DNA of 64,000 nt, taken from the NCBI RefSeq assembly GCF_007625205.1, contig NZ_VMNI01000010.1, positions 1 through 64,000 on the forward strand, given 5' to 3'. This stretch comes from Denitromonas ohlonensis (GTDB taxonomy: Bacteria > Pseudomonadota > Gammaproteobacteria > Burkholderiales > Rhodocyclaceae). How positions within the stretch are numbered: the stretch's first letter is position 1; each line of letters begins with the position of its first letter. Of this stretch, positions 8,567-56,672 are shown piece by piece. Made by a program: the position numbers and the translations under genes. A model generated the notes under the pieces. That model was not told the DNA's origin and did not search any database. It saw only the letters and a list, made by a program, of their open reading frames with translations.

Positions 8567-10893
8567 GCTGTCGACCTGTGTGCGCTGCGACCGGCCAGCG
8601 CCAGCGGCGAGGCCAGAAACGCGGTGATGACCCCCATGAACAAAGTCAGCCCGAAGCTGGCGATCGCCGGCGTGCTGCTGAAGGCGAGCAGCCCGAAGCC
8701 GAGCACGGTGGTGATCGCCGCCAGCAACACGCCGAGTGCGGCCTCGCCCTGCGGCCCGCCCTCGCGGGTAAAGATGCCGTAGTCGGCGCCGATACCGAAG
8801 ACCAGCATCAGCGCCAGCCAGTGGAACAAGGTGGCTGGCAGGCCGAGATAGCCAAGCGCCGCCAGCGGCACGCCGACGGCCAGCACGCAGGGGATCAGTG
8901 TGGCCGCCGCACCGCGCCAGCCGTGGCGACGGCTGAGCAGGATCAGCGACAGGCCGATGGCGCAGGCCAGCGCCCAGGCCATGCCGCGGCGGTATTGCGC
9001 CATCAGTTTGGACACGGCGGCCGGCTTGTCGAGCAGCGTGACGCCGGGCAGGTCGGCGCTGGCGGCCGCGAGGGTGTCGGCGGTCCAACTGCCGTGCAGC
9101 GTGATCACGCTGGCCACGCCGGTTTCTGCAGGGCCCAGCCAGAGGTGGCGATAGGGTGTGGACAGCGGCTGTTTCAACCAGACATCGAGCGTAAGGTTTA
9201 GTTCGGTTTGATAGGCCTGGCTCAGCGCCTCGGCGATGCGGGGGCGATAGCCGACCTCGTCGAGCTGATGTGCCGCCCACTGATCGTCGCCGAACAGCGC
9301 CTCGCCGATCAGCCGGCGGTGGTCGGTCTGGCGTTGAGCTGAGGGGACGAAGCTGGAGATTGCGGTGAAGCCGCCGGCGTGCTGCGGGTCGCGCGCGCGC
9401 AGGGCGTCGGTCAGTTGCTCTTCGCGCTGAAGGAGTTGTTCGGTGTTGCGGGCGTGCACCAGAAACAGCCGGCTGCCCTGGCCGAGCTGGGTGAGCTCGC
9501 GGATCTGCGCTTCCTGGCGCGCCAGCGCGGGGTCGGGCGTGCTGAGCAGGCGCACGTCGTCATTGTGCGTCAGCATCCAGGCGCCGGGCAGACAGGCGGC
9601 GACAGCCATCGGCAGCAGCCAGTGCGCACGGGCTTGGAGGAAGCGCTGCCAGGTGGCGAATGCCTGACGAAGGCGGTCGAGTCCGGCGGTGCTGCGCGGG
9701 TCGGCCCGGTGGGCAAACAGCGGCAGCATCATGAGGGTTGCCAGATAGGCGGTGCCCAGCCCGACCATCGAGAACAGCGCGATCTGACGCAGGCCGGGGA
9801 AGGGCATGGCGAGCAGCGCAGAGTAGCCGAGCAGACTGGTGAGCAGGCCCTGGGTGAGCGCCGGGCGCATCGCCGCCATGGCCTCGCCGGCATGCCAGTC
9901 GGCGCCCGCCAGACGGCGCTTGGCGAAGTAGTGCAGCGGGTAGTCCACCGCAATACCCAGCAGGCTGGTGCCGCACACCAGGGTGAGCAGGTGCAATTGC
10001 CCGTCGACCAGCAACACCACCGCGATGCCGGCGGCAACGCCGGTGGCGATGCAGGCGATGCCGAGCAGTACCGGCCGCAGCGAGCGAAAGGCGAGCAGCA
10101 AGAGCGCGGTGATGCCGAGCAGGGAGATGCCGCCGATCAGCGACATCTCACGTTTGGCGGTGGTTTGGGCTGCCTCGGCGTAGAGCACCAGGCCGGTCGC
10201 CTCAAAATGTGCTGCTGGTACTTGCGCCTGAACGGCCGCGCGGGCTTGTGCCAGCGCGGCCACGACGGCGTCCTGCGTCGACACCGCGTGCGGGCTGCCG
10301 ACGGTTTCGGCGCTGACCAGCGCGTAGCTGTGGCCGTCGCGATGGGCCATCAGGATGCCGTCTTCGGGCGCAAATGCGCCGCCGGCGAACGGCAAATCCG
10401 CAAGGAAGCCGGCGAGCGTGCCGAAGGGGTCGAGCGGGCGGGGCACCGGCGTGGCGGTCGGGATCGGGCTGGCCAGGGCGCGGTAGAGGTCTTCTTGCAG
10501 CGCGTCCCGGCCGCGCTGCTGCAAGGCTGCGCGGGTGGCGGCGGAGAGCAGCCCGAAACGGTGCGGCAGGTAGGTGGTGAGCAGGGTGTCGAGCGCGTCG
10601 GGCGGAATGTCCAGCGTGACATGCTGCAAGGCCGGCGAGGCGCGCAGCGTTGTTGCCAGCACTTGGGCGCCGGCGCGCGCCTGGGCGGCATCGTCGGCGA
10701 CGGTGAGCAGCACGATGCGCCGTTCGTGGGCACGCGCGAGTTGCGACATGGCCTGCTCGGCGATCGGGCTGCGCTCGGTGGCGGGCAGCATGGCGAGCAG
10801 ATCGGTTTCGACCGGTAGCTTGTCGAAGGCGGCCAGCGCGATCATGCCTGCGACCAGCGCGGCGGCCAGGAAGGTGAACAGGCGGCGTGGCAT
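8563..10893 (-). CDS. apeM: MMPL/RND-family exporter of the aryl polyene cluster (ApeM)
   Basis: A 776-residue inner-membrane transporter. One N-terminal membrane helix is followed by a large periplasmic loop, a helix bundle (starting about residue 235 with LIGGISLLGITALLLLAFRSL), a second periplasmic loop and a second bundle near the C-terminus (ending FGLTLFMGVITAFLASPLALAGR). The GADYGIFTREG and GIAVDYPLHYFAKRR helices correspond to the conserved GxDY-type helix of the MMPL fold. Within the operon it is the obvious candidate for carrying the lipid-linked pigment across the periplasm, with the LolA-like ApeL and lipoprotein ApeN encoded on either side. Confidence 0.87.
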   Translation of the reverse strand: MPRRLFTFLAAALVAGMIALAAFDKLPVETDLLAMLPATERSPIAEQAMSQLARAHERRIVLLTVADDAAQARAGAQVLATTLRASPALQHVTLDIPPDALDTLLTTYLPHRFGLLSAATRAALQQRGRDALQEDLYRALASPIPTATPVPRPLDPFGTLAGFLADLPFAGGAFAPEDGILMAHRDGHSYALVSAETVGSPHAVSTQDAVVAALAQARAAVQAQVPAAHFEATGLVLYAEAAQTTAKREMSLIGGISLLGITALLLLAFRSLRPVLLGIACIATGVAAGIAVVLLVDGQLHLLTLVCGTSLLGIAVDYPLHYFAKRRLAGADWHAGEAMAAMRPALTQGLLTSLLGYSALLAMPFPGLRQIALFSMVGLGTAYLATLMMLPLFAHRADPRSTAGLDRLRQAFATWQRFLQARAHWLLPMAVAACLPGAWMLTHNDDVRLLSTPDPALARQEAQIRELTQLGQGSRLFLVHARNTEQLLQREEQLTDALRARDPQHAGGFTAISSFVPSAQRQTDHRRLIGEALFGDDQWAAHQLDEVGYRPRIAEALSQAYQTELNLTLDVWLKQPLSTPYRHLWLGPAETGVASVITLHGSWTADTLAAASADLPGVTLLDKPAAVSKLMAQYRRGMAWALACAIGLSLILLSRRHGWRGAAATLIPCVLAVGVPLAALGYLGLPATLFHWLALMLVFGIGADYGIFTREGGPQGEAALGVLLAAITTVLGFGLLAFSSTPAIASFGLTLFMGVITAFLASPLALAGRSAHRSTA

Positions 10894-21745: not shown

Positions 21746-23635
21746 ATGCCCCTGATTTCCGTAGATCGTGCCTGCCTTGCCTTTGGTCACGTCGCCCTGC
21801 TCGATAAGGCCGATTTTCAGCTCGATGCGGGTGAGCGGGTCGCGCTGATCGGGCGCAATGGCTCGGGCAAGTCCAGCTTGCTGCGGGCCATGGTCGGGCA
21901 GTCGCCGCTGGATGATGGCGAGGTCTGGCGCGCGCCGGGCATTCGCATCGCGTATGTGTCGCAGGAGGCGGATTTTGACCTCGCGCGCTCGGTGTTTGAT
22001 GTGGTGGCCGAAGGCCTGGGCGATGTGGCGGCGGTGCTCAAGGCCTATCACGCGGCGCTTCATCATATTGCCGAGGACGCGTCGGAGGCCGCGATGGCCG
22101 AGCTGGAGCGCACGCAGCACGCGGTGGATAGCGCCGACGCCTGGCGCATGAATCAGCGTGTCGAAGCCATGCTGGGCCGGCTGGCGTTGGATGGCGACCT
22201 GATCGTCAGCACCCTGTCGGGCGGCGGCATCAAGCGGGTGGCGTTGGCGCGGGCGATTGTCGGCGATCCGGAGCTGCTGCTGCTCGATGAGCCGACCAAC
22301 CATCTCGACCTCGATGGCATCCTGTGGCTGGAGGAGTTGATCAAGAGCTTCTCCGGCGCGGTGGTGCTGATCACCCACGACCGGGTGTTCATGGACAACG
22401 TGTCGACCCGCATCGTCGAGCTCGATCGCGGCAACCTGGCCAGTTTCGACGGGCGCTTTGCCGATTACCAGGTGAAGAAGGCCGAGCAGCTTGAGTCCGA
22501 AGCCAAGGCCAGCGCGCGTTTCGACAAGCTGCTGGCGCAAGAAGAGGTTTGGATTCGCAAGGGCGTCGAGGCGCGTCGCACTCGCAACGAAGGCCGGGTG
22601 CGGCGGCTGGAGGCGTTGCGTCGTGAGCGCGCGGCCCGCCGAGAGCGCCAGGGCAATGTGACGCTGGCGCTCGACCGGGGCGACAAGTCCGGCCAGATGG
22701 TGGCGGAGCTCGAAAACGTCAGCAAAGGCTACGGTGGTGCGCCGCTGGTGCGTGACTTCTCGACCCGCATCATGCGCGGCGACCGCATCGGCTTCATTGG
22801 CCCCAACGGCGCGGGCAAGACCACGCTGCTCAAACTGATTCTGGGCGAGCTTGAGCCTGACAGCGGCACGGTGCGCCGCGGCACGCGCCAGCAGGTGGCC
22901 TATTTTGACCAGTTGCGTGCGCAGCTCGACCCCGAGGCGCCGCTGACCGAGGTGATCAGCCCGGGCTCGGACTATGTCGAGATCGGTGGCGAGCGCAAGC
23001 ATGTGATCGGCTACCTGGAAGACTTCCTGTTCGCGCCGCAGCGGGCGAGGTCGCCGGTCAAGTCGCTGTCGGGTGGTGAGCGCAACCGCCTCTTGCTGGC
23101 GCGCTTGTTTGCCCAGCCGGCCAACGTGCTGGTGCTCGACGAGCCGACCAACGACCTGGATATTGAAACGCTGGATCTGCTCGAAGCGCTGCTGGCGGAC
23201 TACGCCGGCACGCTGTTCCTGGTCAGTCACGACCGGGCTTTCCTCGATAATACGGTGACGCAGGTCATCGCCTCCGAGGGCAACGGCGAGTGGAAGGAGT
23301 ATGTGGGTGGCTATGCCGACTGGCAGCGTCTGCGCAAGCAGCCGGCGGCGCCGGTGGCCGAAAAGAAGGCGGTCGTGACCAAGGACAAGCCCAAGGCCGC
23401 GCCTGCCAAGAAGCTGTCATTCAAGGATCAGCGCGAACTCGACGGCTTGCCGGATCGCATCAGTGCGCTGGAGGCGGAAGAGGCGAGCCTGCACGCCCGC
23501 CTGGCCGACCCCAATCTGTATCAGAGCACACCGGACGTGGCGGTCGAGCTGAACGCGCGGCTTGAGGCGGTGGGTGAAGAGATGCTGGCGGCGATGGCGC
23601 GCTGGGAAGAACTGGAGCAGCAAGCCGGCGGTTGA
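21746..23635 (+). CDS. uup: ABC-F family ATPase Uup
   Basis: A 629-residue soluble protein with two ABC ATPase domains. First domain: Walker A GRNGSGKSS near residue 33, signature LSGGGIKR, Walker B LLLLDEPTNHLD. Second domain: GPNGAGKTT, LSGGERNR, LVLDEPTNDLD. The linker between them is charged, and the C-terminus (KLSFKDQRELDGLPDRISALEAE onward) is the coiled-coil extension typical of Uup, a ribosome- and DNA-associated ABC-F protein. The first signature motif has an extra Gly (SGGGIKR), the only oddity. The ATG at 21746 begins the conserved MPLISVDRACLAFG. Confidence 0.93.
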   Translation: MPLISVDRACLAFGHVALLDKADFQLDAGERVALIGRNGSGKSSLLRAMVGQSPLDDGEVWRAPGIRIAYVSQEADFDLARSVFDVVAEGLGDVAAVLKAYHAALHHIAEDASEAAMAELERTQHAVDSADAWRMNQRVEAMLGRLALDGDLIVSTLSGGGIKRVALARAIVGDPELLLLDEPTNHLDLDGILWLEELIKSFSGAVVLITHDRVFMDNVSTRIVELDRGNLASFDGRFADYQVKKAEQLESEAKASARFDKLLAQEEVWIRKGVEARRTRNEGRVRRLEALRRERAARRERQGNVTLALDRGDKSGQMVAELENVSKGYGGAPLVRDFSTRIMRGDRIGFIGPNGAGKTTLLKLILGELEPDSGTVRRGTRQQVAYFDQLRAQLDPEAPLTEVISPGSDYVEIGGERKHVIGYLEDFLFAPQRARSPVKSLSGGERNRLLLARLFAQPANVLVLDEPTNDLDIETLDLLEALLADYAGTLFLVSHDRAFLDNTVTQVIASEGNGEWKEYVGGYADWQRLRKQPAAPVAEKKAVVTKDKPKAAPAKKLSFKDQRELDGLPDRISALEAEEASLHARLADPNLYQSTPDVAVELNARLEAVGEEMLAAMARWEELEQQAGG

Positions 23636-30522: not shown

Positions 30523-31272
30523 TTATCGCGGTGGCGCGCTGGCATCGATCTGCGCCTGAATCACGCGCCAGATCGGTTTGACCATGAAGCGCAGCCCTTT
30601 GATGATGCCTTGTACGTCCATCATCGAGGGTACGCGGGTGCCGCGGTGCTCGACCGGGCCGCCGATCTGCGTGATTTCGACCCCCAGCTTGGAAAAATGG
30701 GAGGCCAGGCGGGGCTCGGTGAGGACAAAAAGCGTGTCGATGTTATTTCGTGCCGCCAGCGCGACCGACCCAAGATACAGGCCGATCGGAATGTAGGGGA
30801 AGCGCGGTTGGCGCCCCGCGAGTTCATAGTCGTCGTCGTGCAGCGCCACGGCAACATTTTGCTCTCCTTTGCGTCGCCGATAGGTTGAGCGCACGGCCAA
30901 GCGAGAGACTTCCGCGATACGTCGGCGGTCGAGCTTCATTGGATCAATGAGCCTGCGATCGATGGTGTGCGCGCAGGTTTTTTCGAAGGGCAGCAGTTCG
31001 TCCAGTGCGTCGGGCGGCGGCAGCACCAGGCGAATACAGCCGACCGACGGGTTGGGCGGCTGTGAGCCACGCAGCAGGCAGTGCAGGCTGTTGCTGTCGT
31101 AGGCGTCGGTTTCGCGGCGGTCCGGTCGCTCGGGCTCGAATTTGAGCTCTTCGCAGTAGACCTCGTGGCGCACACGAAAGACCTCGTCGCGCACGGCATC
31201 AGTGGCCGCGGCTTCGATCTGGAAGTACTTGCTGAAGCCGACACCGAGATTGAAGCGATCGAACAGTGACAT
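30523..31272 (-). CDS. PEP-CTERM/exosortase-associated acyltransferase (FeeM-like N-acyl amino acid synthase family)
   Basis: A 249-residue GNAT-fold enzyme. EVFRVRHEVYCEELKFEP at the N-terminus is the signature of the exosortase-system-associated acyltransferase family, which is related to autoinducer synthases and to FeeM N-acyl amino acid synthases. IAEVSRLAVRSTYRRR is the conserved core. FeeM enzymes acylate an amino acid (often Tyr) from acyl-ACP. It is the third gene of a minus-strand unit after two ABC permeases, and a PEP-CTERM protein is encoded 4.7 kb away. Its true product is unknown. Confidence 0.85.
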   Translation of the reverse strand: MSLFDRFNLGVGFSKYFQIEAAATDAVRDEVFRVRHEVYCEELKFEPERPDRRETDAYDSNSLHCLLRGSQPPNPSVGCIRLVLPPPDALDELLPFEKTCAHTIDRRLIDPMKLDRRRIAEVSRLAVRSTYRRRKGEQNVAVALHDDDYELAGRQPRFPYIPIGLYLGSVALAARNNIDTLFVLTEPRLASHFSKLGVEITQIGGPVEHRGTRVPSMMDVQGIIKGLRFMVKPIWRVIQAQIDASAPPR

Positions 31273-31299
31273 GATGACTCCTTGATATTCCGTTCGCGC

Positions 31300-32511
31300 T
31301 CAGACGCCCTGACGGAGTGCGTCGACGATCTGGGTCGACGCGACTCGGCGGGCGGGGAAGATGGCCGCCAGAACGGTGGCGACAAGTCCGATCACAAAGG
31401 CCACGGCGATGGTCGACGGCACGATGCGGATGAAGGCAACATAGCCCAGGTTGGCGTTGGGCGGCGGCGGCATCGGGATGCCAATGGCCGAGACGCCCAG
31501 CGCAACGCCGATGCCGACAAGCACGCCGAGACCGGCGCCGATCAGCCCGAGAATCGTACTTTCAACCAGCAGCAAGCGAAAAATGGCCGGCGGCCGGCTC
31601 CCGAGCGCGAGCATGGTGCCAAATTCGCTCTGGCGCTCAAACACGCTCATGTTGACGCTATTGACCACCGAGAGCAGCACCATGGCCAGAATGATGAGCT
31701 GAAGAATGCCGAACTGACGGTCGTAGAGCTGAACGGTTTTGTCGTAAAAGTCGGACAGCTGTCGCCAGTTGCGGATGTCGAGCTCGTCGGGGAGCGCCGC
31801 CTGGAGGCGCTGGTGGGCGGGCGAGGTGTCTTCGGTGCGGTGCAAGGAGACCACCAGCAGGTTGGCGCCCTCGGTCAGCATGAGTTGTTGTGCGGCCTGC
31901 AGCGGGATGCGCACCGTGCGCGCATCAAAGTCTTTGGAGAAACTCTGGAAGACGCCGATCACGTTCATGTCGATCGTATTCAGCGCGCCGCCCGCGGTGT
32001 TCATCACCAGGGTGACATGGTCGCCGGGCACGATGCCGAGCGCTTGGGCAACGCCCTGGCCGACGGTCATGCCAAAGGTGTCGTCGTCGTCAAGCTGGCG
32101 GCCCGCGGTGATCGACAGATAGCTGCCGAGTTGCGCCTCCTTGCGTGGCTCGATGCCCTCACCAACGATGGCCAGATCGCGTTTCCCGTTGTTGAGCAGG
32201 CCCGAAAAGCTCAGCCGGGCGGTGACGCCGCTGACCTCGGGGGTTTGCTCCAGTTGTGCCGCAACGCGGGCGGGGTCGGCAATCAGGAAGCGCTCGGGGT
32301 GCCGGGTGCCTTGCTCCAGATAACCGCGTTTGAAGACCTGGAAATGCCCGGTCTGCGAGTGAATGATCGCCTCGCCGAGCTGGACGAAGATGTCCGCCAC
32401 GAAGCCGCCCGAGACGATCAGGCCAGCGACACCGAAAACGATGGCCATCAACGTCATGCCGGTGCGCACTTTCTGGCGAAGCACATTGCGAAGGGCGAGT
32501 TTGATCAGCAT
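31300..32511 (-). CDS. FtsX/LolE-type ABC transporter permease
   Basis: A 403-residue inner-membrane permease of the MacB/LolC/E class: one N-terminal helix (LMAIVFGVAGLIVSGGFV), a large periplasmic core domain (about residues 45-270), and three C-terminal helices (LQLIILAMVLLSVVNSVNMSVF, then LLLVESTILGLIGAGLGVLVGIGVALG and IAVAFVIGLVATVLAAIFPARR). Five bases separate it from the upstream permease, so the two probably form a heterodimer. No ATP-binding subunit is encoded in this unit. Confidence 0.86.
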   Translation of the reverse strand: MLIKLALRNVLRQKVRTGMTLMAIVFGVAGLIVSGGFVADIFVQLGEAIIHSQTGHFQVFKRGYLEQGTRHPERFLIADPARVAAQLEQTPEVSGVTARLSFSGLLNNGKRDLAIVGEGIEPRKEAQLGSYLSITAGRQLDDDDTFGMTVGQGVAQALGIVPGDHVTLVMNTAGGALNTIDMNVIGVFQSFSKDFDARTVRIPLQAAQQLMLTEGANLLVVSLHRTEDTSPAHQRLQAALPDELDIRNWRQLSDFYDKTVQLYDRQFGILQLIILAMVLLSVVNSVNMSVFERQSEFGTMLALGSRPPAIFRLLLVESTILGLIGAGLGVLVGIGVALGVSAIGIPMPPPPNANLGYVAFIRIVPSTIAVAFVIGLVATVLAAIFPARRVASTQIVDALRQGV

Positions 32512-32516
32512 GGCGG

Positions 32517-33761
32517 TCAGCGCTGGTGACGCAGGGCGTCGACAATGATCATTCGGGAGGCCTTCCAGGCCGGGAAGACGCTGGCCAGAAGCGTGGTGGT
32601 GATCGCAAGCACGAGGGCGTCAAACGCGAGTGCGGGGGTAATGGCAATCTGCCCGGTGAAGCCGTGTGCCATGCCCGGCGGGGGTGGCATGGGAATGCCG
32701 ACGCTGGAAATGATCTGGCCGAGCAGCAGGCCGACGACAATGCCGCCCACGCCGCCAACCACGCCGATCAGAAGCCCTTCAGAGATGAACTGCTGCAGGA
32801 TGCCCTGGCGCTTCACCCCAATGGCCATGGCGGTGCCGATTTCGCTGGTGCGCTCGAGTACCGACATGGTCAAGGTGTTGGAAATGCTCAACACCACAAT
32901 CAGTGCGATCAGCAGGCGAACGACGCCCACCTGGCGGGTGAACAACTCAACGGTCTTGTTGTAGAAGTCGGCCAGATCGCTCCACGGCACGACGTCGAAG
33001 GCTTTCGGATCGAGCGAGGCGCGCAATTGCTGAACCGTTGCATCGGTGTGTGCGGTGTCGTCGAGGAGTACGACCCACGAGGTCGAGCCACTCACCCGCA
33101 TCAGACTCCGCGCAATGCCGATCGGCGCGCGCAGGACGACGTCGTCGTAGGCCTTGGTGATGGTGGCGAAGATGCCGGCCACCTGGCACTCGACCGCATT
33201 GACACCGCCGCCCGCGGTCGTGCCAAGCAGCACGATCGTGTCGCCGGGTTCGGCGCCAATGCTGGCGGCCAATCCCTCTCCGAGCAGGACGGAGTTCTCG
33301 GGGCTTTCGGTGAGATCCTTGCCGCGCAACACGGTGATGGCGCGGCTGATCGGTGCTTCGAGGTCGGGGGCGATGCCTTCGCCAATGAACGAGACCGTCG
33401 CGTCGCCCTTGCTGAGCAGGCCGCCAAAGGTCAGTCGTGGGGCGAGGGTCTTGATGGCTGGTGTTTTGGCGGATTGGGTGGTGTCGATCGGCGCTTCGTC
33501 GATCAGGTAGCGATACGGATCGGACTGGCCGCCAGACAGGAAGCCCGGGCGAACAAGCTGAATGTGGCCCAGCTGCGAGTGGATCGTCGATTCACGCATG
33601 TCGATGAAGATCCACTGGATGAATCCGCCTGCGAGCAGGAACGCTACCACCCCACCGCCCACGGTGCCGAGCGCAAACAAAGAGCGCCGGCGGTGACGCA
33701 AGAGATTTCTTGCGGCCAGCGTAATGTCTTGCTTCAGGCGTTGGAGAGCGTTGCGCCACAT
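32517..33761 (-). CDS. FtsX/LolE-type ABC transporter permease
   Basis: A 414-residue permease with the same layout as its downstream neighbour: RNLLRHRRRSLFALGTVGGGVVAFLLAGG at the start, a periplasmic core, and three C-terminal helices (LLIALIVVLSISNTLTMSVLERTSEIGTAMAIG; LLIGVVGGVGGIVVGLLLG; ALVLAITTTLLASVFPAWKA). It is the first gene of the minus-strand unit and is divergent from the ThiF gene with a 67-base gap, which suggests shared control. Such permeases usually move lipids, lipoproteins or acylated small molecules. Confidence 0.86.
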   Translation of the reverse strand: MWRNALQRLKQDITLAARNLLRHRRRSLFALGTVGGGVVAFLLAGGFIQWIFIDMRESTIHSQLGHIQLVRPGFLSGGQSDPYRYLIDEAPIDTTQSAKTPAIKTLAPRLTFGGLLSKGDATVSFIGEGIAPDLEAPISRAITVLRGKDLTESPENSVLLGEGLAASIGAEPGDTIVLLGTTAGGGVNAVECQVAGIFATITKAYDDVVLRAPIGIARSLMRVSGSTSWVVLLDDTAHTDATVQQLRASLDPKAFDVVPWSDLADFYNKTVELFTRQVGVVRLLIALIVVLSISNTLTMSVLERTSEIGTAMAIGVKRQGILQQFISEGLLIGVVGGVGGIVVGLLLGQIISSVGIPMPPPPGMAHGFTGQIAITPALAFDALVLAITTTLLASVFPAWKASRMIIVDALRHQR

Positions 33762-33828
33762 GGCAGTTTCATGTCGAGAAGGAGTTGCCTATGATAACGG
33801 TTCGATTTGCGGAAGATGAAGGTGTCGC

Positions 33829-34713
33829 ATGAGCGGGGCATTTGATTATGGTGCGGCATTCTCGAGAAATATCGGTTGGGTCACGGAGGACGAGCAGGCG
33901 GCGCTGAAGCGCAAGCGTGTTGCCATCGCCGGGATGGGCGGCGTCGGTGGCGTGCATTTGCTGACCTTGGCGCGCTTCGGCATCGGCGCTTTTTCGATTG
34001 CCGACTTCGATACATTTGATGTCGTCAACTTCAATCGTCAGGCCGGGGCCGTGGTATCGACGCTCGGGCAGCCCAAGGCCGAGGTCTTGTCCCGCATGGC
34101 AAAGGACATCAATCCTGAGCTGGATGTGAGGGTGTTCCCGGAGGGCGTGTCGGATGCCAATCTCGACACCTTTCTGGATGGCGCCGATCTCTATGTCGAT
34201 GGCCTCGATTTTTTTGCCTTCGCCGCCCGGCGCGCCACATTTGCGGCGTGTCGCCGACGGGGCATTCCGGCGATTACCGCAGCGCCGCTCGGAATGGGCG
34301 TGGCGTTTCTGTGCTTTACGCCCGAGAGCATGAGCTTTGAGGACTATTTCTGCCTCGACGACTGCGACGAGAACGAAATGGCGCTGCGATTCCTGCTCGG
34401 CCTGTCGCCCGCCATGCTACAGCGCAGCTATCTGGCCGACCCGTCGCGCGTGAATCTGGCGGAACATAAAGGACCTTCGACGATTGCCGCGTGCCAGCTG
34501 TGCGCCGGGGTGATCGCGACGGAGAGCGTCAAACTGCTGCTCGGTCGCGGCGGCGTGCCCGTGGCGCCACGCGGCTACCAGTTCGACGCGTATCGCAATC
34601 GCTTTACCCGCACCTGGCGACCCGGGGGTAATCGAAATCCGATCCAGAAAATCGGCCTGGCCATTGCACGCCGGCAACTGGCGGGCATGAAGAAGGCGTC
34701 ACATCATGGCTGA
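33829..34713 (+). CDS. ThiF/MoeB/E1-like adenylyltransferase
   Basis: A 294-residue E1-superfamily enzyme. VAIAGMGGVGGVHLLTLARFGIG is the ATP-binding glycine loop, IADFDTFDVVNFNRQ contains the conserved Asp and the Arg of the NxNRQ motif, and DGLDFFAFAARR aligns with the Mg-binding segment. A CxxC (CQLC) sits near residue 223, but the other zinc pair is replaced by CLDDC, so zinc binding is uncertain. These enzymes adenylate a C-terminal carboxylate, of a protein or a small molecule. Its stop overlaps the nitroreductase gene by 8 bases, so the two act together. Confidence 0.83.
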   Translation: MSGAFDYGAAFSRNIGWVTEDEQAALKRKRVAIAGMGGVGGVHLLTLARFGIGAFSIADFDTFDVVNFNRQAGAVVSTLGQPKAEVLSRMAKDINPELDVRVFPEGVSDANLDTFLDGADLYVDGLDFFAFAARRATFAACRRRGIPAITAAPLGMGVAFLCFTPESMSFEDYFCLDDCDENEMALRFLLGLSPAMLQRSYLADPSRVNLAEHKGPSTIAACQLCAGVIATESVKLLLGRGGVPVAPRGYQFDAYRNRFTRTWRPGGNRNPIQKIGLAIARRQLAGMKKASHHG

Positions 34714-35782
34714 TCGCGACACGCTGCTGAAAATGCTCGATCTGGCCCGCTGGGCGCCCAGCGGAGACAACACCCAGCCATGGCGTTTTGAGATCGTGTC
34801 GGAGTCGCACATTGCCATCCATGGGCACGACACCCGCGATTGGTGCGTGTATGACTTCCGTGGTTACGCCAGCCACATCGCGCACGGAGCGCTGCTCGAA
34901 ACGCTGCGTATTGCCGCCAGTGATGCCGGCTTGATCGCCACATGGGCGCTTCGCGACGGCACGACGGATGTCGCGCCGATTTACGATGTCACGCTTGAGC
35001 CCTCGGCAGATATCGCGCCCGACCCCTTGCTGGCTTTTGTTGAATCTCGTGCGGTGCAGCGCCGCCCCATGCAAACCACGCCGCTCACCGGCGAACAAAA
35101 GGCCGCGCTCAAGCATGCCGTGGGTGACGACTTCGAGCTCAGTTTCTTTGAGTCCGGCCAGATGAAGCGCCGGGTGGCCAAGCTGCTGTGGGATAGCGCC
35201 TACCTTCGCCTGACCTGCCCCGAGGCCTATGAGGTTCACAAGCGCGTGATCGAATGGGGCGCGAGATTCAGCGACGACAAGATCCCGGAAGAGGCCGTTG
35301 GCGTCGATGCCGCCACCGCCAAGCTGATGCGCTGGGTCATGCAGAGTTGGGCGCGGGTGGCGTTTTTCAACAAGTATCTGGCAGGCACGATTGCCCCCCG
35401 AATTCAGCTCGACGTCTTGCCGGCATTACGCTGCGCTGCGCATATTCTGATCACACCCAAGAGCACGCCGGCGGGGTTTCTGGACTACGTTCGTGCCGGC
35501 CAGTCCATGCAGCGGCTGTGGCTTACGACTGCGTCGCTCGGCTTGCACCTTCAGCCCGAGATGACCCCGGTGATCTTTCGGTGGTACGCGCAAAACGGGG
35601 CGCCGATTACAGCAGATCGAAGCATGGATGCGGCGTCGGCGCGATTGGCGGGGCGGTTTGATGTCTTGGCCGGCCGTGGCACGGATGACCCGTTCGTGTT
35701 TTTCTGTCGTGTTGGCACTGGCGCGAACCCCGTTTCTCGCTCCTTGCGGATAGCGCTTCGCACGTTGTTGCGGTCGGATTGA
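34706..35782 (+). CDS. Nitroreductase-family flavoprotein
   Basis: A 358-residue protein with the FMN-binding start DLARWAPSGDNTQPWRFEI and a nitroreductase-type C-terminal half (RAGQSMQRLWLTTASLGLHLQPEM, with the flavin-contacting region before it). It is much longer than simple nitroreductases (about 200 residues) because of the middle segment 90-240. Related folds oxidise azolines or modify small molecules in natural product pathways. Translation is coupled to the ThiF gene by an 8-base overlap. Substrate unknown. Confidence 0.8.
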   Translation: MADRDTLLKMLDLARWAPSGDNTQPWRFEIVSESHIAIHGHDTRDWCVYDFRGYASHIAHGALLETLRIAASDAGLIATWALRDGTTDVAPIYDVTLEPSADIAPDPLLAFVESRAVQRRPMQTTPLTGEQKAALKHAVGDDFELSFFESGQMKRRVAKLLWDSAYLRLTCPEAYEVHKRVIEWGARFSDDKIPEEAVGVDAATAKLMRWVMQSWARVAFFNKYLAGTIAPRIQLDVLPALRCAAHILITPKSTPAGFLDYVRAGQSMQRLWLTTASLGLHLQPEMTPVIFRWYAQNGAPITADRSMDAASARLAGRFDVLAGRGTDDPFVFFCRVGTGANPVSRSLRIALRTLLRSD

Positions 35783-35956: not shown

Positions 35957-35971
35957 TGGCACGGTCATTGC
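35957..35971 (+). promoter_or_regulatory. Sigma-54 (RpoN) promoter of the PEP-CTERM gene
   Basis: TGGCACGGTCATTGC has the -24 GG and -12 GC exactly 10 bases apart and matches the TGGCAC-N5-TTGC consensus fully. It lies 46 bases before the PEP-CTERM ATG. PEP-CTERM genes are commonly under RpoN and the PrsK/PrsR two-component system, which fits. The rest of the 235-base gap (35783-36017) shows no other clear feature. Confidence 0.85.
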
Positions 35972-36017
35972 TTTTACTCAGTCGAGGCAAGCAGCCTTTC
36001 AATATTCGAAGGAGAAC

Positions 36018-36803
36018 ATGGCTATGACTACTTTTCTGAAAAAATCTTTGCTTGGCGTTGCAGCCTCGACCGCGATCATGGCATCCGGCTCGGCGCACGC
36101 TGTGCTGACCAACTGGTGGCTCGATACTGACGGCGTTGGTGGTAACGCCGCGGTTCAAGTCCAGCAGTATGTCGACCTGAACGGCCAGGCGCTGGTGGAG
36201 AACACCTTCACCGGCGGTGGCAACTTCAACTTCAATGAGGTGGGTTTCTTCACCTCGGTGCTGGCAGACAGCGTGACACCGCTGGCGCCGGGACTGTCCT
36301 CCACCTTTGTGGGTACGGGTACTGGCAACGTGGGTGGCAACCTGAGCTTCTTGACGGGTACGCTGAACATTTCGTCGGGTGTGACCCAGATCGCGTCTTT
36401 TGATCTGGTGACTGGTAGCGCCAACCTGAACGGTGGCACGGTGCTGCCGAACGGCCCGGTTTCGTTGATTTTCAAGGCAACATCGTTGTCCGCTGGCTAC
36501 TTCTTTGATGCGGGCTTGACCGATTTGTCCACCATCGTTTCCAGCCCGCAGGGTCTGTTGTTTGGTTTTGCGACTACCAACGCGATTCCTATCAATACCG
36601 GCAACCAGGCTTCCGCAGGTCTTCAGGCCCAGTACGTGTCTGAGTTCGGTGCGCTGAGCCAGACCAATGTGGATCAGCAGAATCTGCTGCAACTGTCGAA
36701 CAACGGCCAGTTCCAGCTTCAGGTTCCGGAGCCCGCATCGCTTGCGCTGCTGGGTCTGGGCTTGGTCGGCCTCGCTTCGGTGCGTCGCCGTAACAAAGCC
36801 TAA
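36018..36803 (+). CDS. PEP-CTERM sorting-domain protein
   Basis: A 261-residue exported protein. The signal peptide is TTFLKKSLLGVAASTAIMASGSAHA. The mature part is rich in Gly, Asn, Ser and Thr with beta-type repeats. The C-terminal anchor is classic: PEPASLALLGLGLVGLASVRRR, i.e. PEP motif, hydrophobic helix and Arg cluster, recognised and cleaved by an exosortase. The start has GAAGGAG upstream. Such proteins are surface or matrix proteins linked to exopolysaccharide and flocculation. No exosortase gene is in the window. Confidence 0.93.
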   Translation: MAMTTFLKKSLLGVAASTAIMASGSAHAVLTNWWLDTDGVGGNAAVQVQQYVDLNGQALVENTFTGGGNFNFNEVGFFTSVLADSVTPLAPGLSSTFVGTGTGNVGGNLSFLTGTLNISSGVTQIASFDLVTGSANLNGGTVLPNGPVSLIFKATSLSAGYFFDAGLTDLSTIVSSPQGLLFGFATTNAIPINTGNQASAGLQAQYVSEFGALSQTNVDQQNLLQLSNNGQFQLQVPEPASLALLGLGLVGLASVRRRNKA

Positions 36804-52380: not shown

Positions 52381-55044
52381 CTATAGCAGCTGGGCGAAAT
52401 CGTCGGGTGCGAGCGGGGCAGCGAACAGTCGCCCCTGCTGGCGATGGCAGCCGAGGGCGAGCAGGGCGTCTTGTTGTTCAATGGATTCGACGCCGACCGC
52501 CTGCAGGCGCAAACCCAGCGCGGCCGACGCGGCAAGGGTCGCGGCGAGGACGCTGTGGTTGTCGGCATTGGCCATATCGCGAATCAGCGAGCGGTCCAGT
52601 TTGAGTCGATGGACCGGGCGCTGGCGAAGCCGGGCGAGCGGCAGCGGCGTGGCGCCGACGCCGGTGATGGCGAGGCGCACCCCGGCGTTGTCGAGGGCGT
52701 ACAGCGCTTTGATCAGATCGCCGTGGTCCTGCGTCAAGCAGCTTTCGGGCAGATTCAGTTCGATGGCGCTGGCCGGCAAGCCGGTTTCGGCGAGCACTTC
52801 GAGTAAGGTTTCTTGCAGGCGCCCGTATGTCAGCATGTGCTCGGTGGCACCAATGGCGACGGGGATCGTCTGCCCGGCCTGGTGCCATTCGGCCGCGTGC
52901 CCGCACACCATCCGCAGGGCTTGGCGGCCGATTTCCAGGTCAAGTCCGGCACTTTGTGCAATGGGGAGAAACTGATGGGCCGGGACGAGGCCCATGTCGG
53001 GATGCTGCCAGCGAAGGAGCGCCTCGGCGGCAATGATGCATCCGGTCTGCGCGTCCACCACGGGCTGAAAGTACATGGCCAGTTCATCGCGCTCAAGGGC
53101 GTGCGCGAGTGAGCGCTCGAGTGCGGCTTGTTCGAAGCTTGCCGTGTTGAGTTCGTCCGTATGAAAGCGGACGGCGCCGGGGCCTTCGAGGCGCGCGCGC
53201 TCGAGTGCGGCCGAGGCCAGTGCGCACAGCTCGTCAAAATCGGCGCCGTCGCCGGGAAACACCGCCGCACCGAGGCTGGCGGTGAGCGTCACGGATACCT
53301 GGCCTGCCTTGAAGGGCGCCTTGATGGCGTCGTGCAAGGCGTGGACTTCGCGCGTGACGTCACTGAGCAGCTCGACGCCATGAATCAGGGCGAGAAAGCG
53401 ATCGCTGCCCACACGCGCCAGTTGAATGCGCGGGCTGCATTGACGGATGCGGGTGGCGAATTGCTGCAGCACCTGATCGCCCAGCGCGGTGCCGTGGGCG
53501 GTGTTGATCTGCTTGAACTGGTCGATGTCCACAAAGGCCAGCGCCAGATGCTGCTGTTTTCGCAGCGCGCCGGGGGTGAGTTCGGTGAATCGCGCCCGAA
53601 TGAAATGGGCCTTGGGCAAGCCGGTCATCGCGTCGTGATTGACCAGATAGTCGCTGCGCGCTTCGGCTTGCTTGCGGGCGGAGAGATCGCTGAACAGCCC
53701 GATGTGGGCCACGGTGGCACCGTCGGCGCTGTGCACGCTGTTGAACGACAGCCATTCCGGGAAGGCTTCGCCCTTGCGGTTGCGCAGCCAGAACTCGCCT
53801 TGCCAGGCCTGATGGGCGCCAAGGCTGCTCTGCAAACGCTCAAAAAACGCATCGTCCTGCCGGCCACTGGCGGCGTCGGCGAGTGGCTTGCCGCGCAAGG
53901 CGTGGATGTCGAGTCCGGTCAGCGTGGCGAAGGCGGTATTGATCGACAGGATTTTGTGTTCGGCGTCGGTCACGATAACCGCACGCGCATTGGTGCTGAA
54001 GATGTCGAAATCGACCGGCGAAGCCGATGCGCTGGCGCCGCCGTGGACGATCAGCCATTCGCTGTGGGCGCCGTCGAGGGCCTGGGCCTGAGTGTGTGCG
54101 CTGAAGGCCTTGCCGCCGCCCAGCCACTGCCAGTTGCCGCTCACAAGCGTGCTGACGGTGTCGCTGCGAAGTGTCGACAGGCGCATGCCGATCAGTGCCG
54201 AGCGTTCCCGGCCGTGCATCGTGGCAGCCATGTCGTTGGCGGCGAGGATGGTGTGGTCGCTGCCGCGCACGACGAGCATGGCCTGGGGGGCATGGCGAAA
54301 CACCTGACTGGCGCGGGTGTCCACCGCGGCGACCGGCGAGGATGCGCTCAGCAGCAGCACCTGCCAGCCGGGTTCCGGCCCCGCCAGCAGGCGACCGTGC
54401 ATGGCCGGGGCGCCATCGGTGGGCGTGACGGTGACCGGCCCGGATTCGCGGGCGGGGTCACTGATTGTGCATAGTGCCGATAACGGGAGTCCGGTGAGGG
54501 CGCCGCCTTCGCGCGAGAAACGACGGCGGGCCGGCGCGTTGGCGGCCATGATCTTGCCGCGGGCATCGACAACCAGCGCCGCCTGGTCGAGCGCGGCGGC
54601 GAGGCGCGGCCAGACGGCGTCGGCGGCGCGTTGCACATTGGGGGTGAGACCGGTGACCGGGTCGGGGCTGAGGATCAGGGCATGCACGCCGGGCCGGATA
54701 CGCGCGGCGGCGACATAGCTCAGATCGCGCTCGCGCCCGCCGGGCAGGCCGACCCGCAGGCTGCCGCGCATCTCGCCCTGGATGAACAGGGCGCCGCGGG
54801 CCTTGAGGAAAGCGCGCTCAGTCGGGAAGAGCGAGGACAGCGGTTGGCCGGCCAGGTCGCGGTAGCTGCGCTCCAGCAAGCGACAGACGGCGCTGTTGAC
54901 CTCCAGGATCGTTTCGTCGCTGGCGATGATCAGCCCCTCGTTCATGAGTTCGAACAAGGACAGATACAAGCCGGCTTCGGCCCCTTCGGTCAGGTCGGGG
55001 ACGAAAAGATCGTCGGGTTCTCGGGGCACGGGAGCCAGTTCCAT
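52381..55044 (-). CDS. PAS-GGDEF-EAL protein with both output domains degenerate
   Basis: An 887-residue cytoplasmic sensor with no membrane helix. At least three PAS-type modules fill residues 25-470 (for example IIASDETILEVNSAVCRLLERS and IVTDAEHKILSINTAFATLTGL). The GGDEF domain (475-645) has GSDRF at 546-550 and no RxxD site, so synthesis of c-di-GMP is doubtful. The EAL domain (from about 650) keeps EAL at 674-676, but the catalytic DDFG is ITGVG (793-797) and the AEGVE motif is AVGVE, so the phosphodiesterase should be inactive. It is likely a signal-binding or scaffold protein. It is monocistronic. Confidence 0.87.
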   Translation of the reverse strand: MELAPVPREPDDLFVPDLTEGAEAGLYLSLFELMNEGLIIASDETILEVNSAVCRLLERSYRDLAGQPLSSLFPTERAFLKARGALFIQGEMRGSLRVGLPGGRERDLSYVAAARIRPGVHALILSPDPVTGLTPNVQRAADAVWPRLAAALDQAALVVDARGKIMAANAPARRRFSREGGALTGLPLSALCTISDPARESGPVTVTPTDGAPAMHGRLLAGPEPGWQVLLLSASSPVAAVDTRASQVFRHAPQAMLVVRGSDHTILAANDMAATMHGRERSALIGMRLSTLRSDTVSTLVSGNWQWLGGGKAFSAHTQAQALDGAHSEWLIVHGGASASASPVDFDIFSTNARAVIVTDAEHKILSINTAFATLTGLDIHALRGKPLADAASGRQDDAFFERLQSSLGAHQAWQGEFWLRNRKGEAFPEWLSFNSVHSADGATVAHIGLFSDLSARKQAEARSDYLVNHDAMTGLPKAHFIRARFTELTPGALRKQQHLALAFVDIDQFKQINTAHGTALGDQVLQQFATRIRQCSPRIQLARVGSDRFLALIHGVELLSDVTREVHALHDAIKAPFKAGQVSVTLTASLGAAVFPGDGADFDELCALASAALERARLEGPGAVRFHTDELNTASFEQAALERSLAHALERDELAMYFQPVVDAQTGCIIAAEALLRWQHPDMGLVPAHQFLPIAQSAGLDLEIGRQALRMVCGHAAEWHQAGQTIPVAIGATEHMLTYGRLQETLLEVLAETGLPASAIELNLPESCLTQDHGDLIKALYALDNAGVRLAITGVGATPLPLARLRQRPVHRLKLDRSLIRDMANADNHSVLAATLAASAALGLRLQAVGVESIEQQDALLALGCHRQQGRLFAAPLAPDDFAQLL

Positions 55045-55155
55045 CGGCAGCCTGGATGAGGGTGATCGGGATGCTCACCATCATATCGACCTGTCGCGGT
55101 GGATCTTGACTTTGAAAGGGGGGCGTTTCCCCCTCTGTTTGTTCGTTTCAGCGCG

Positions 55156-55179
55156 GGCCCGTCTGCGGACAGACGGGCC
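55156..55179. terminator. Strong hairpin downstream of rhlE
   Basis: GGCCCGTCTG-CGGA-CAGACGGGCC is a perfect 10-bp stem with a 4-base loop, 27 bases past the rhlE stop. There is no T run after it on the minus strand, so it may act as a mRNA 3' stabiliser or a weak terminator. Confidence 0.5.
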
Positions 55180-55205
55180 ATAAAATGGCTGAAAGCCTTG
55201 TGGGC

Positions 55206-56672
55206 TCAGCCTTTGCGGCCGACACCACCAAGCAGGAAGGCCACCGGTCGGTTGGCGCGTGACGGGGTGTCGGGTTTGGTGCTTGGGGCCTTGGGCGCGT
55301 CGCTGGCTTCGTAGGGCTTGGCATAATCGAAGCCATCGGCGGCGACGGTGGATTTCTTGCGTGCCGGCGTGCGCGTGCGCTCGCTTCGGCCGCGCGGCGC
55401 GGCGCTGTCGTCACCGCCTCGGCCGCGCGGGGCGGCGCTATCGTCACTGCCCCGGCTGCGGCGCCCGGCGTTGTCTTCGTTGCGGCCGCGGCGGCCGGCA
55501 CTGGCGCCGTCGCTGTGGTCACGAACACCGGAGGCCTGGAAGTCTTCAACGGTATGTACCGGAATCGTCAGCTTGATCAGCTTTTCGATGCCAGCCAGGT
55601 TGCTGCGATCTTCGGGCGCCACGAGTGAAATGGCTTTGCCTTTCTTGCCGGCGCGACCGGTGCGGCCGATGCGGTGCACATAGTCTTCCGAGGTATTGGG
55701 CAGGACATAGTTGACCACGTAGGGCAGGTCGTCGATGTCCAGGCCGCGGGCGGCCACGTCGGTGGCCACGAGCACGCGGGTGGTGCCGTTCTTGAAGCCT
55801 TCGAGGGCCTCGGTACGCTGCTGCTGGCTCTTGTCGCCATGGATGGCGTCGGCCGGGATGTCGCAGCGGTTGAGGTAGTGGGTGAGTCGGCTGCAGCCGA
55901 ACTTGGTGTCGACAAACACCAGCACCTGGGCGTCGATGGTGGTCTTGAGCAGATGCACCAGCAGGTCACGCTTGCGGCTGGACTCGACCGGATAGACCTG
56001 GTGCTCGATGGTCTCGCTGACCATGTTGCGGCGGGCGACTTCGATCAGTTGCGGCTCGTTCAGCATCTGGTCGGCCAGCTTCTTGATTTCGTTCGAGAAG
56101 GTGGCCGAGAACAGCAGGCTCTGGCGCTGGTTGGGCAGCATCGAGAGGATGCGGCGGATGTCGGGGATGAAGCCCATGTCGAGCATGCGGTCGGCTTCGT
56201 CGAGCACCAGCATCTTGACCTGGTTGAGCTGGATGCTGCGCTGCTGGACGTGGTCGAGCAGACGGCCGGGGGTGGCCACCACGATCTCGACGCCTTCGCG
56301 CAGGATCTGCGTCTGGGCGCGCATGTCGACACCGCCGTAGATGCAGGTGGCGCGCAGCGGCAGGTATCGACTATAGGTGAGCACCGACTCATACACCTGC
56401 ATGGCCAGCTCGCGGGTCGGCGCCAGAATGAGGGCGCGAACCGGGTGGCGGGCGGGCGAGGTGCTGGTGCTGGCATGCGGGGCCAGGCGTTGCAGGACCG
56501 GCAGCGTGAAGCTGGCGGTTTTGCCGGTGCCGGTTTGCGCACCGCCCATCACGTCGCGGCCCGACAGTACGATCGGAATGGCGTCGCGTTGGATGGGGGT
56601 CGGCTCTGAGTAGCCGGCGTCTTCAACGGCGCGCAGCAGTTCCGGCATCAGGCCGAGATCGGCAAAAGTCAT
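55206..56672 (-). CDS. rhlE: DEAD-box RNA helicase RhlE-type
   Basis: A 488-residue DEAD-box helicase. The helicase motifs are in order: Q motif EPTPIQRDAIP, AQTGTGKT, PTRELA, VLDEADRMLDMGF, FSATF, and HRIGRTGRAG. The core ends near residue 380. The C-terminus is a basic, low-complexity tail with tandem Arg-Gly/Asp units (DDSAAPRGRGG, DDSAAPRGRSE). It probably acts in ribosome assembly and RNA decay. The tail repeats are imperfect copies of about 12 residues. Confidence 0.92.
   Translation of the reverse strand: MTFADLGLMPELLRAVEDAGYSEPTPIQRDAIPIVLSGRDVMGGAQTGTGKTASFTLPVLQRLAPHASTSTSPARHPVRALILAPTRELAMQVYESVLTYSRYLPLRATCIYGGVDMRAQTQILREGVEIVVATPGRLLDHVQQRSIQLNQVKMLVLDEADRMLDMGFIPDIRRILSMLPNQRQSLLFSATFSNEIKKLADQMLNEPQLIEVARRNMVSETIEHQVYPVESSRKRDLLVHLLKTTIDAQVLVFVDTKFGCSRLTHYLNRCDIPADAIHGDKSQQQRTEALEGFKNGTTRVLVATDVAARGLDIDDLPYVVNYVLPNTSEDYVHRIGRTGRAGKKGKAISLVAPEDRSNLAGIEKLIKLTIPVHTVEDFQASGVRDHSDGASAGRRGRNEDNAGRRSRGSDDSAAPRGRGGDDSAAPRGRSERTRTPARKKSTVAADGFDYAKPYEASDAPKAPSTKPDTPSRANRPVAFLLGGVGRKG

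Follow-up and report, generated by a model that had tools for sequence, protein, structure and literature searches.

What does a bacterium make with an N-acyl amino acid synthase, a ThiF-type adenylating protein and a flavoprotein, and where does the product go, when the three genes flank a pair of permeases and adjoin the gene of a PEP-CTERM protein? The question is raised by positions 30,523 to 35,782 of a 64,000-nucleotide stretch of the Denitromonas ohlonensis genome (contig NZ_VMNI01000010.1; the whole stretch is termed the window). We consider it reasonably probable that the proteins of this locus synthesise an N-acyl (dehydro)amino-acid lipid linked to the exosortase surface programme and take part in its export, and that export is by a Lol-like ATP-binding cassette (ABC) system. 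The enzyme chemistry is known in kind, since the reactions of TyzB, TyzC and TrzS are published, and its assignment to this locus would follow from homology. What looks new is a Lol-like export set that is conserved, is divided between two loci in this genome, and is tied to the synthase and to exosortase. Gene anatomy and gene association are read directly from the genomes; from these we infer all four chemical and transport steps, the chemistry by homology, and the transport and permease substrate by gene association. The genes of the locus are as follows.

30523..31272, minus strand: N-acyl amino acid synthase (NAS), exosortase-associated type (TIGR03694); 249 amino acids (aa); family score and predicted fold
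31300..32511, minus strand: FtsX1, FtsX/LolCE-like permease; 403 aa; MacB_PCD and FtsX above cut-off
32517..33761, minus strand: FtsX2, FtsX/LolCE-like permease; 414 aa; MacB_PCD and FtsX above cut-off
33762..33828, no strand: gap between the two divergent units; 67 bases
33829..34713, plus strand: ThiF-type adenylating cyclase (PRK08223 family); 294 aa; family score and ATP-site residues
34706..35782, plus strand: Acg-like flavin-dependent oxidase (FDO), nitroreductase superfamily; 358 aa; PF00881 and fold match

The open-frame listing of the window gives all five frames with the coordinates, orientations and 67-base gap of the original prediction, which had also noted the 8-base overlap shared by the ThiF and FDO frames. 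The NAS gene adjoins the permeases, with 28 bases between, and the permease pair sits between NAS and ThiF. The ThiF profile was used to fetch 80 named loci, and 13 of them repeat this order, NAS< FtsX1< FtsX2< ThiF> FDO> (arrowheads give orientation), among them L169, in which the FDO match is 2 kb further along. Because the order recurs in this way, the five-gene arrangement is more than chance. By its ThiF the window is Denitromonas-like, the nearest named relatives of this protein being those of Denitromonas halophila SFB-3 (98%) and Zoogloeaceae bacterium G21618-S1 (97%). The locus tally among named genomes was taken over 52 of the 80 loci, those of at least 15 kb.

Among 300 genomes of the order, ThiF is found above cut-off in 51, TIGR03694 in 31, FeeM in 59, an FtsX2 orthologue in 32 and exosortase in 111. 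ThiF is accompanied by a NAS of any type in 50 of its 51 genomes, the exception (G266) being 70% complete with its match at a contig end. The permease pair, counted by FtsX2, has NAS in 32/32 genomes. Lack of conservation of the gene set in exosortase-bearing species had been named beforehand as grounds for rejecting the original prediction; the set proves to be conserved there, exosortase being present in 49 of the 51 ThiF genomes and in all 32 pair genomes, as it is in 31/31 genomes with TIGR03694. Within the 111 exosortase genomes, NAS is found in 32/32 of those with the pair versus 36/79 of the others (Fisher 3e-9). The tie is repeated by family (13/13 versus 13/38), and shared descent is accounted for in the Fisher tests by this family-level repeat only.

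The FtsX2 count depends on a threshold. Matches were found in 47 genomes, of which 32 were kept (best match at least 45% identical; the counted orthologues are 45–56% identical) and 15 were set aside; with all 47 genomes, NAS is present in 36. Those set aside include G058 (297.5 bits, 40%, a single permease and no NAS), and those kept include G005 (226 bits, truncated where its contig ends). Of the weaker matches, 14 of 15 were fetched (all but G077). Thirteen show a single permease with LolD and a LolA-like gene, one shows a permease with LolD, and our profiles recognise no NAS in these 14 stretches. Paralogous single-permease LolD-FtsX-LolA_like sets are seen at L152, L154–L162 and L164–L166, where no NAS is recognised in the stretch; these represent an uncharacterised exporter family.

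Within 10 kb of ThiF, the 51 loci have NAS in 44, FDO in 39, FtsX in 19, MMPL in 6 and exosortase-cluster genes in 12; several of these stretches end at contig ends. The neighbourhood profiles were built from loci of the order, with thresholds of our choosing, and the order's loci therefore match them by construction. The cluster names FeeM, LolA_like, DUF1302, MMPL, glycosyltransferase and methyltransferases were each assigned from one or two representatives. In Janthinobacterium, Duganella and Rugamonas loci, no NAS is recognised near ThiF with these profiles, and the upstream frames scanned there are MCP (L206) and CstA (L213).

Both permeases exceed the MacB_PCD and FtsX domain cut-offs. 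An identity as LolC or LolE was rejected, as FtsX1 gives 112 and FtsX2 98.6 bits on the lolCE model, the cut-off being 362.45. A complete transporter inside the window was likewise rejected: ABC ATPase matches consist only of weak pieces at 21791–23263 (scoring no more than 47.7 bits with the LolD model), and no LolD-like ATPase is found near the permease pair in the window. Contig C21 of the same genome has a LolA_like gene (PF17131) at 52744–53514 (minus strand) and a LolD-like ATPase gene at 53517–54308 (plus), with a DUF1302-type barrel match at 54616–55368 (plus) and a FeeM-type synthase match at 55810–56259 (minus). Exosortase-cluster export, chain-length and kinase genes follow from 56671 onward, and exosortase is at 66849–67601. 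The order of this set is LolA< LolD> DUF1302> FeeM< exosortase-cluster genes>. By our arithmetic the C21 and window loci are separated by at least about 83 kb however the contigs join. Judged by genes alone, one genome has the permease pair, the LolD-like ATPase and the LolA-fold carrier of a Lol-type system. The window permease pair is half of a transporter, and candidate ATPase, carrier and barrel genes are on another contig. The proposal that the permeases export the product is favoured by gene association.

The two sets are joined in Rhodocyclales bacterium RYN_554, where one locus (L184) reads LolA< LolD> DUF1302> NAS< FtsX1< FtsX2< ThiF> FDO> PEP-CTERM< FeeM> FeeM<, followed by exosortase-cluster genes. 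Near the pair in the 32 pair genomes, LolD is found in 27, LolA in 27, DUF1302 in 28, NAS in 25 and ThiF in 19. A search for LolA orthologues took 13 of the 14 named loci that have the pair and no partner in view (L181 was left out). Twelve of these 13 genomes, which have no LolA, LolD or DUF1302 at the locus, carry a LolA orthologue elsewhere (at least 58% identical); none was found in the remaining one, L173, a metagenome-assembled genome of 3.1 Mb. Five comparison genomes with no complete pair recognised at the locus comprise two with the orthologue (both Zoogloea) and three without (two Aromatoleum and one Janthinobacterium). LolD and DUF1302 matches are beside LolA in 14/14 of the LolA loci found. 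At six of the 51 ThiF loci (L062, L066, L082, L094, L098 and L110), an MMPL pump is found with LolA-like and DUF1302 genes, and none of these six genomes is among the 32 pair genomes. The MMPL pump and the FtsX pair are apparently interchangeable inner-membrane pumps. At L074:5926-6996 the LolD-like ATPase of the exporter, the sole ATPase scanned for this feature, has an N-terminal FHA domain, a hint of phosphorylation control.

The gene set and its split partners suggest a dedicated route that carries lipid to the cell surface. FtsX1 and FtsX2, paired with the LolD-like ATPase from C21, would draw the lipid out of the inner membrane and pass it to the LolA-like carrier. With help from the DUF1302 barrel, the lipid would then reach the outer membrane or the outside.

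Several observations weigh against the proposal of synthesis coupled to Lol-like export. The C21 ATPase gives 225.1 bits on the LolD model, below the cut-off of 307.75, and four of the genome's 77 ATPase matches score higher. The C21 barrel scores weakly on DUF1302, with 43.7 bits and fifth place among six matches. Both proteins are assigned to the permease pair by their neighbours. In seven of the 32 pair genomes the stretch fetched has no NAS, and the Aromatoleum loci L174 and L177 have no permease pair. No FDO is found by our profiles within 10 kb in 12 of 51 ThiF loci. In the available part of PMC12479983, kyonggic acids, thalassotalic acids and stieleriacines are described with no oxazolone observed. 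Finally, 30 of 51 ThiF genomes are without the pair and 11 of 32 pair genomes are without ThiF; the pair is therefore not specific to oxazolones. Since the pair is also found without this ThiF, the probable cargo of the exporter is the wider class of N-acyl amino acids, not oxazolones alone.

The same genomes with the pair and no ThiF lend themselves to another explanation, in which the enzymes do make an acyl-oxazolone or N-acyl dehydroamino acid while the exporter set moves a different cargo of the exosortase programme (another lipid, a lipoprotein or a polysaccharide carrier); its link to NAS would then reflect the common programme only. The confinement of the pair to exosortase genomes fits this, as do the 7 of 32 pair genomes in which the sets abut exosortase-cluster genes. 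Against it stand the excess of NAS in pair genomes, which persists among exosortase genomes, and the NAS gene 28 bases from the permeases in the window. We regard a different cargo as possible though rather doubtful.

On the enzyme side, the synthase gives 255.6 bits on TIGR03694 (cut-off 111.95), 53.8 on PF13444 (cut-off 22.4) and 27.1 on the FeeM model PF21926 (cut-off 27). The TIGR03694 score and two exosortase matches in the genome place it in the exosortase-associated class. Its predicted fold (mean pLDDT 86.8) best matches acyl-homoserine lactone synthases (5w8e, E 7.2e-10) and then FeeM (2g0b, E 3.1e-7). By score and fold, an N-acyl amino acid synthase is found next to ThiF and FDO genes, as in an acyl-oxazolone pathway. 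Its predicted role would be to attach the acyl group to an amino acid, aromatic in the likeliest case. The resemblance to acyl-homoserine lactone synthases could instead mean that the product is a diffusible signal which the transporter merely secretes; a LolA-like carrier and a barrel would seem unneeded for a freely diffusing signal, and this alternative is unlikely.

For published synthases of this kind, the available parts of the articles (all papers given here by PMC number are drawn on in part) describe a catalytic glutamate and N-acyltyrosines with surfactant and antibiotic activity (PMC4897644). They also describe disruption of an exosortase-type N-acyl amino acid synthase gene in a methanotroph to test its part in polysaccharide band formation (PMC11072679). 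A further FeeM-type synthase lies in a 442-aa open frame in L144, at about 9357-10652 (G000 C31:191521-192000), and FeeM-matching frames of like length are found in G111, G218 and G294. The ThiF/FDO loci L103 and L104 hold both synthase types, the FeeM-type before FDO and the TIGR03694-type divergent from ThiF.

The ThiF protein gives 147.7 bits on PF00899 (cut-off 28.1) and 480.7 on PRK08223 (cut-off 266). Residues G35, G37, G38, G40, G41, D61, N69, R70, K83, D124 and D127 are invariant over 23 homologues. The adenylating domain has an intact ATP site, the conservation seen being that of the general ATP site. The protein would adenylate the carboxylate of the acylated amino acid and close it to an oxazolone. 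A role of ThiF and the flavoprotein in the metabolism of cofactors or tRNA (of MoeB, ThiF or TcdA type), with a chance position beside the synthase, is very improbable: the core is common to TcdA, ThiF and MoeB, and can be aligned to all three, but their family cut-offs are missed whereas that of PRK08223 is passed, the genome has two further ThiF-domain proteins, and ThiF occurs with NAS almost without exception.

The FDO gives 34.5 bits on PF00881 (cut-off 23.5). Its best NCBIfam match is the Acg family NF047509, at 111.2 bits, below the cut-off of 199. The predicted model (mean pLDDT 90.1) has as its best fold match 2ymv, an Acg homologue (E 4.1e-13, TM-score 0.69 by query length, 17% identity). 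The 8-base overlap and the fold indicate an Acg-like FDO adjoining ThiF, though the NF047509 cut-off is missed. On the fused TrzS-family model NF005901 (Rv1355c), ThiF covers positions 91-225 and FDO 373-718 of 722, in the correct order; the cut-off of 476 is reached by neither alone. In 11 of the 51 ThiF genomes ThiF is within an open frame of at least 660 aa, with room for a ThiF-FDO fusion. The Acg-type flavoenzyme may then desaturate the ring with O2; the result would be an N-acyl oxazolone, or an N-acyl dehydroamino acid once hydrolysed.

At L171 the ThiF neighbour is weak on PF00881 (22.6 bits against the cut-off of 23.5), and several c0-cluster genes beside ThiF score below our FDO threshold; the FDO counts are therefore lower bounds. 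At L186 the gene downstream is a cation efflux protein. A glycosyltransferase is found within 10 kb of ThiF in 13 of 51 loci, and EryCIII-like glycosyltransferase genes are near ThiF/FDO at L067, L068, L070, L072, L074, L076, L081, L091, L099 and L106, possibly a tailoring step on the lipid. Some relatives have methyltransferases, an O-methyltransferase and a fatty acid desaturase around ThiF; together with the glycosyltransferase, these hint at a phenolic product.

Downstream of the FDO gene are two further features.

35957..35972, plus strand: exact match to the -24/-12 promoter of sigma-54 type, for the PEP-CTERM gene; associated but of separate transcription
36018..36803, plus strand: gene for a PepA-like PEP-CTERM protein, a neighbour; open frame from 35874, start by our reading

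The PEP-CTERM neighbour that had been proposed is confirmed by its score on PF07589 (32.1 bits, cut-off 20.7). The PepA-type cut-off is barely passed (80.6 versus 80), and the PepA-type assignment is based on this score together with the sigma-54 promoter. The ATG at 36018 is the likely start rather than 35874. An exact -24/-12 consensus, TGGCACGGTCATTGCT, lies 46 bases upstream of this ATG and is the only exact match in the window. It alone is remarkable: when as many as two mismatches are allowed, the window has 5 occurrences of the pattern versus 17.2 expected, which is no enrichment. The match is identical in L167 and L168, the two nearest relatives, and is not found in the other five of seven named loci with a PEP match. 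Membership in the ThiF-FDO transcript was rejected for this gene because it appears to have its own sigma-54 type promoter. The pepA gene of Aquincola is RpoN-dependent and involved in flocculation, according to the part of PMC9850573 available. A PEP-CTERM gene of the window's type is within 3 kb of ThiF in 10 of 51 loci.

The original interpretation is thus partly supported: the pathway type and the exosortase link are right, the chemistry was already described, and the window holds half of the transporter. The synthase, the carboxylate-activating ThiF protein and the oxidising flavoprotein do appear to form one pathway. The description of it as uncharacterised has to be given up, the ThiF/flavoprotein chemistry being published for TyzB/TyzC and TrzS and the set known in Massilia kyonggiensis and Thalassotalea (PMC10404671, PMC12856293, PMC12479983).

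If lipid synthesis coupled to Lol-like export is correct, a Lol-like ABC route would serve a small lipid instead of a lipoprotein, and the conserved permease-ATPase-carrier-barrel set that travels with the synthase would bear both on where the lipid goes and on the PEP-CTERM surface layer. One might go further and suppose that a small lipid is dedicated to the exosortase system and has its own Lol-type delivery. The exported cargo, an oxazolone (an azlactone, a mild acylating agent) or N-acyl amino acid taken to the outer membrane, would then be the membrane partner still missing from the exosortase reaction, reacting with or anchoring PEP-CTERM proteins or exopolysaccharide. This extension is a long shot.

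How does the locus compare with known systems? OxzAB is reported in de Rond 2021, cited here by way of the papers below. OxzAB (Pseudoalteromonas), TyzABC and TrzAS (mycobacteria, Rhodococcus) are like the window set in having NAS, a ThiF-like cyclase and an Acg-like flavin oxidase, adjacent or fused; the likeness consists of common family models and a common closest solved oxidase structure, and is set by models and by the partly available descriptions (PMC10404671, PMC12856293). For the TrzS oxidase domain, the authors give the same closest structure, 2ymv (PMC12856293). ATP-dependent cyclisation is reported for TyzB and TrzS, and O2-dependent desaturation to the oxazolone for TyzC and TrzS; the same three-gene kind of set is found in Massilia kyonggiensis, Thalassotalea and Stieleria (PMC10404671, PMC12856293, PMC12479983). 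The kyonggic acid, thalassotalic acid and stieleriacine sets are similarly composed of synthase, ThiF and nitroreductase family genes, and Massilia, one of their carriers, is of the same broad betaproteobacterial group as the window (PMC12479983). The gene mmpL9 adjoins the tyz genes (PMC10404671). In neither PMC12479983 nor PMC12856293 does the text use the terms exosortase, permease or transporter. Among the literature matches listed, in which few subscription papers are covered so that absence is weak evidence, no paper joins these enzymes with a LolA-like/DUF1302/FtsX exporter. Unlike OxzAB, TyzABC and TrzAS, the window has an exosortase-associated synthase, separate ThiF and FDO genes and a permease pair beside them.

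N-acyl amino acid synthases are said to have been linked to PEP-CTERM/exosortase by Craig et al. in 2011, a paper known to us as a citation only; the TIGR03694 type resembles those synthases in its occurrence in exosortase genomes. The proposed exporter is like LolCDE-LolA and the Type VII ABC system YbbAP-TesA in having two FtsX/MacB_PCD permeases, a LolD-like ATPase and a LolA-like carrier, and YbbAP-TesA is reported, in the part of the source available, to pull hydrophobic compounds out of the inner membrane (PMC12646458). It differs from LolCDE-LolA in that the LolC/LolE and LolD cut-offs are missed, a DUF1302-type outer-membrane barrel joins the set and the parts are split over two loci. 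Two further transport sets, again as partly available, resemble the MMPL form of the six relatives: AmeABCD, a monoterpene efflux system of Castellaniella with DUF1302, LolA-superfamily and RND proteins (PMC6394551), and the Lol-like and RND pump proteins proposed as carriers of aryl polyenes, an outer-membrane lipid (PMC8253772). In contrast to both, the window's genome has an ABC permease pair where the RND pump stands.

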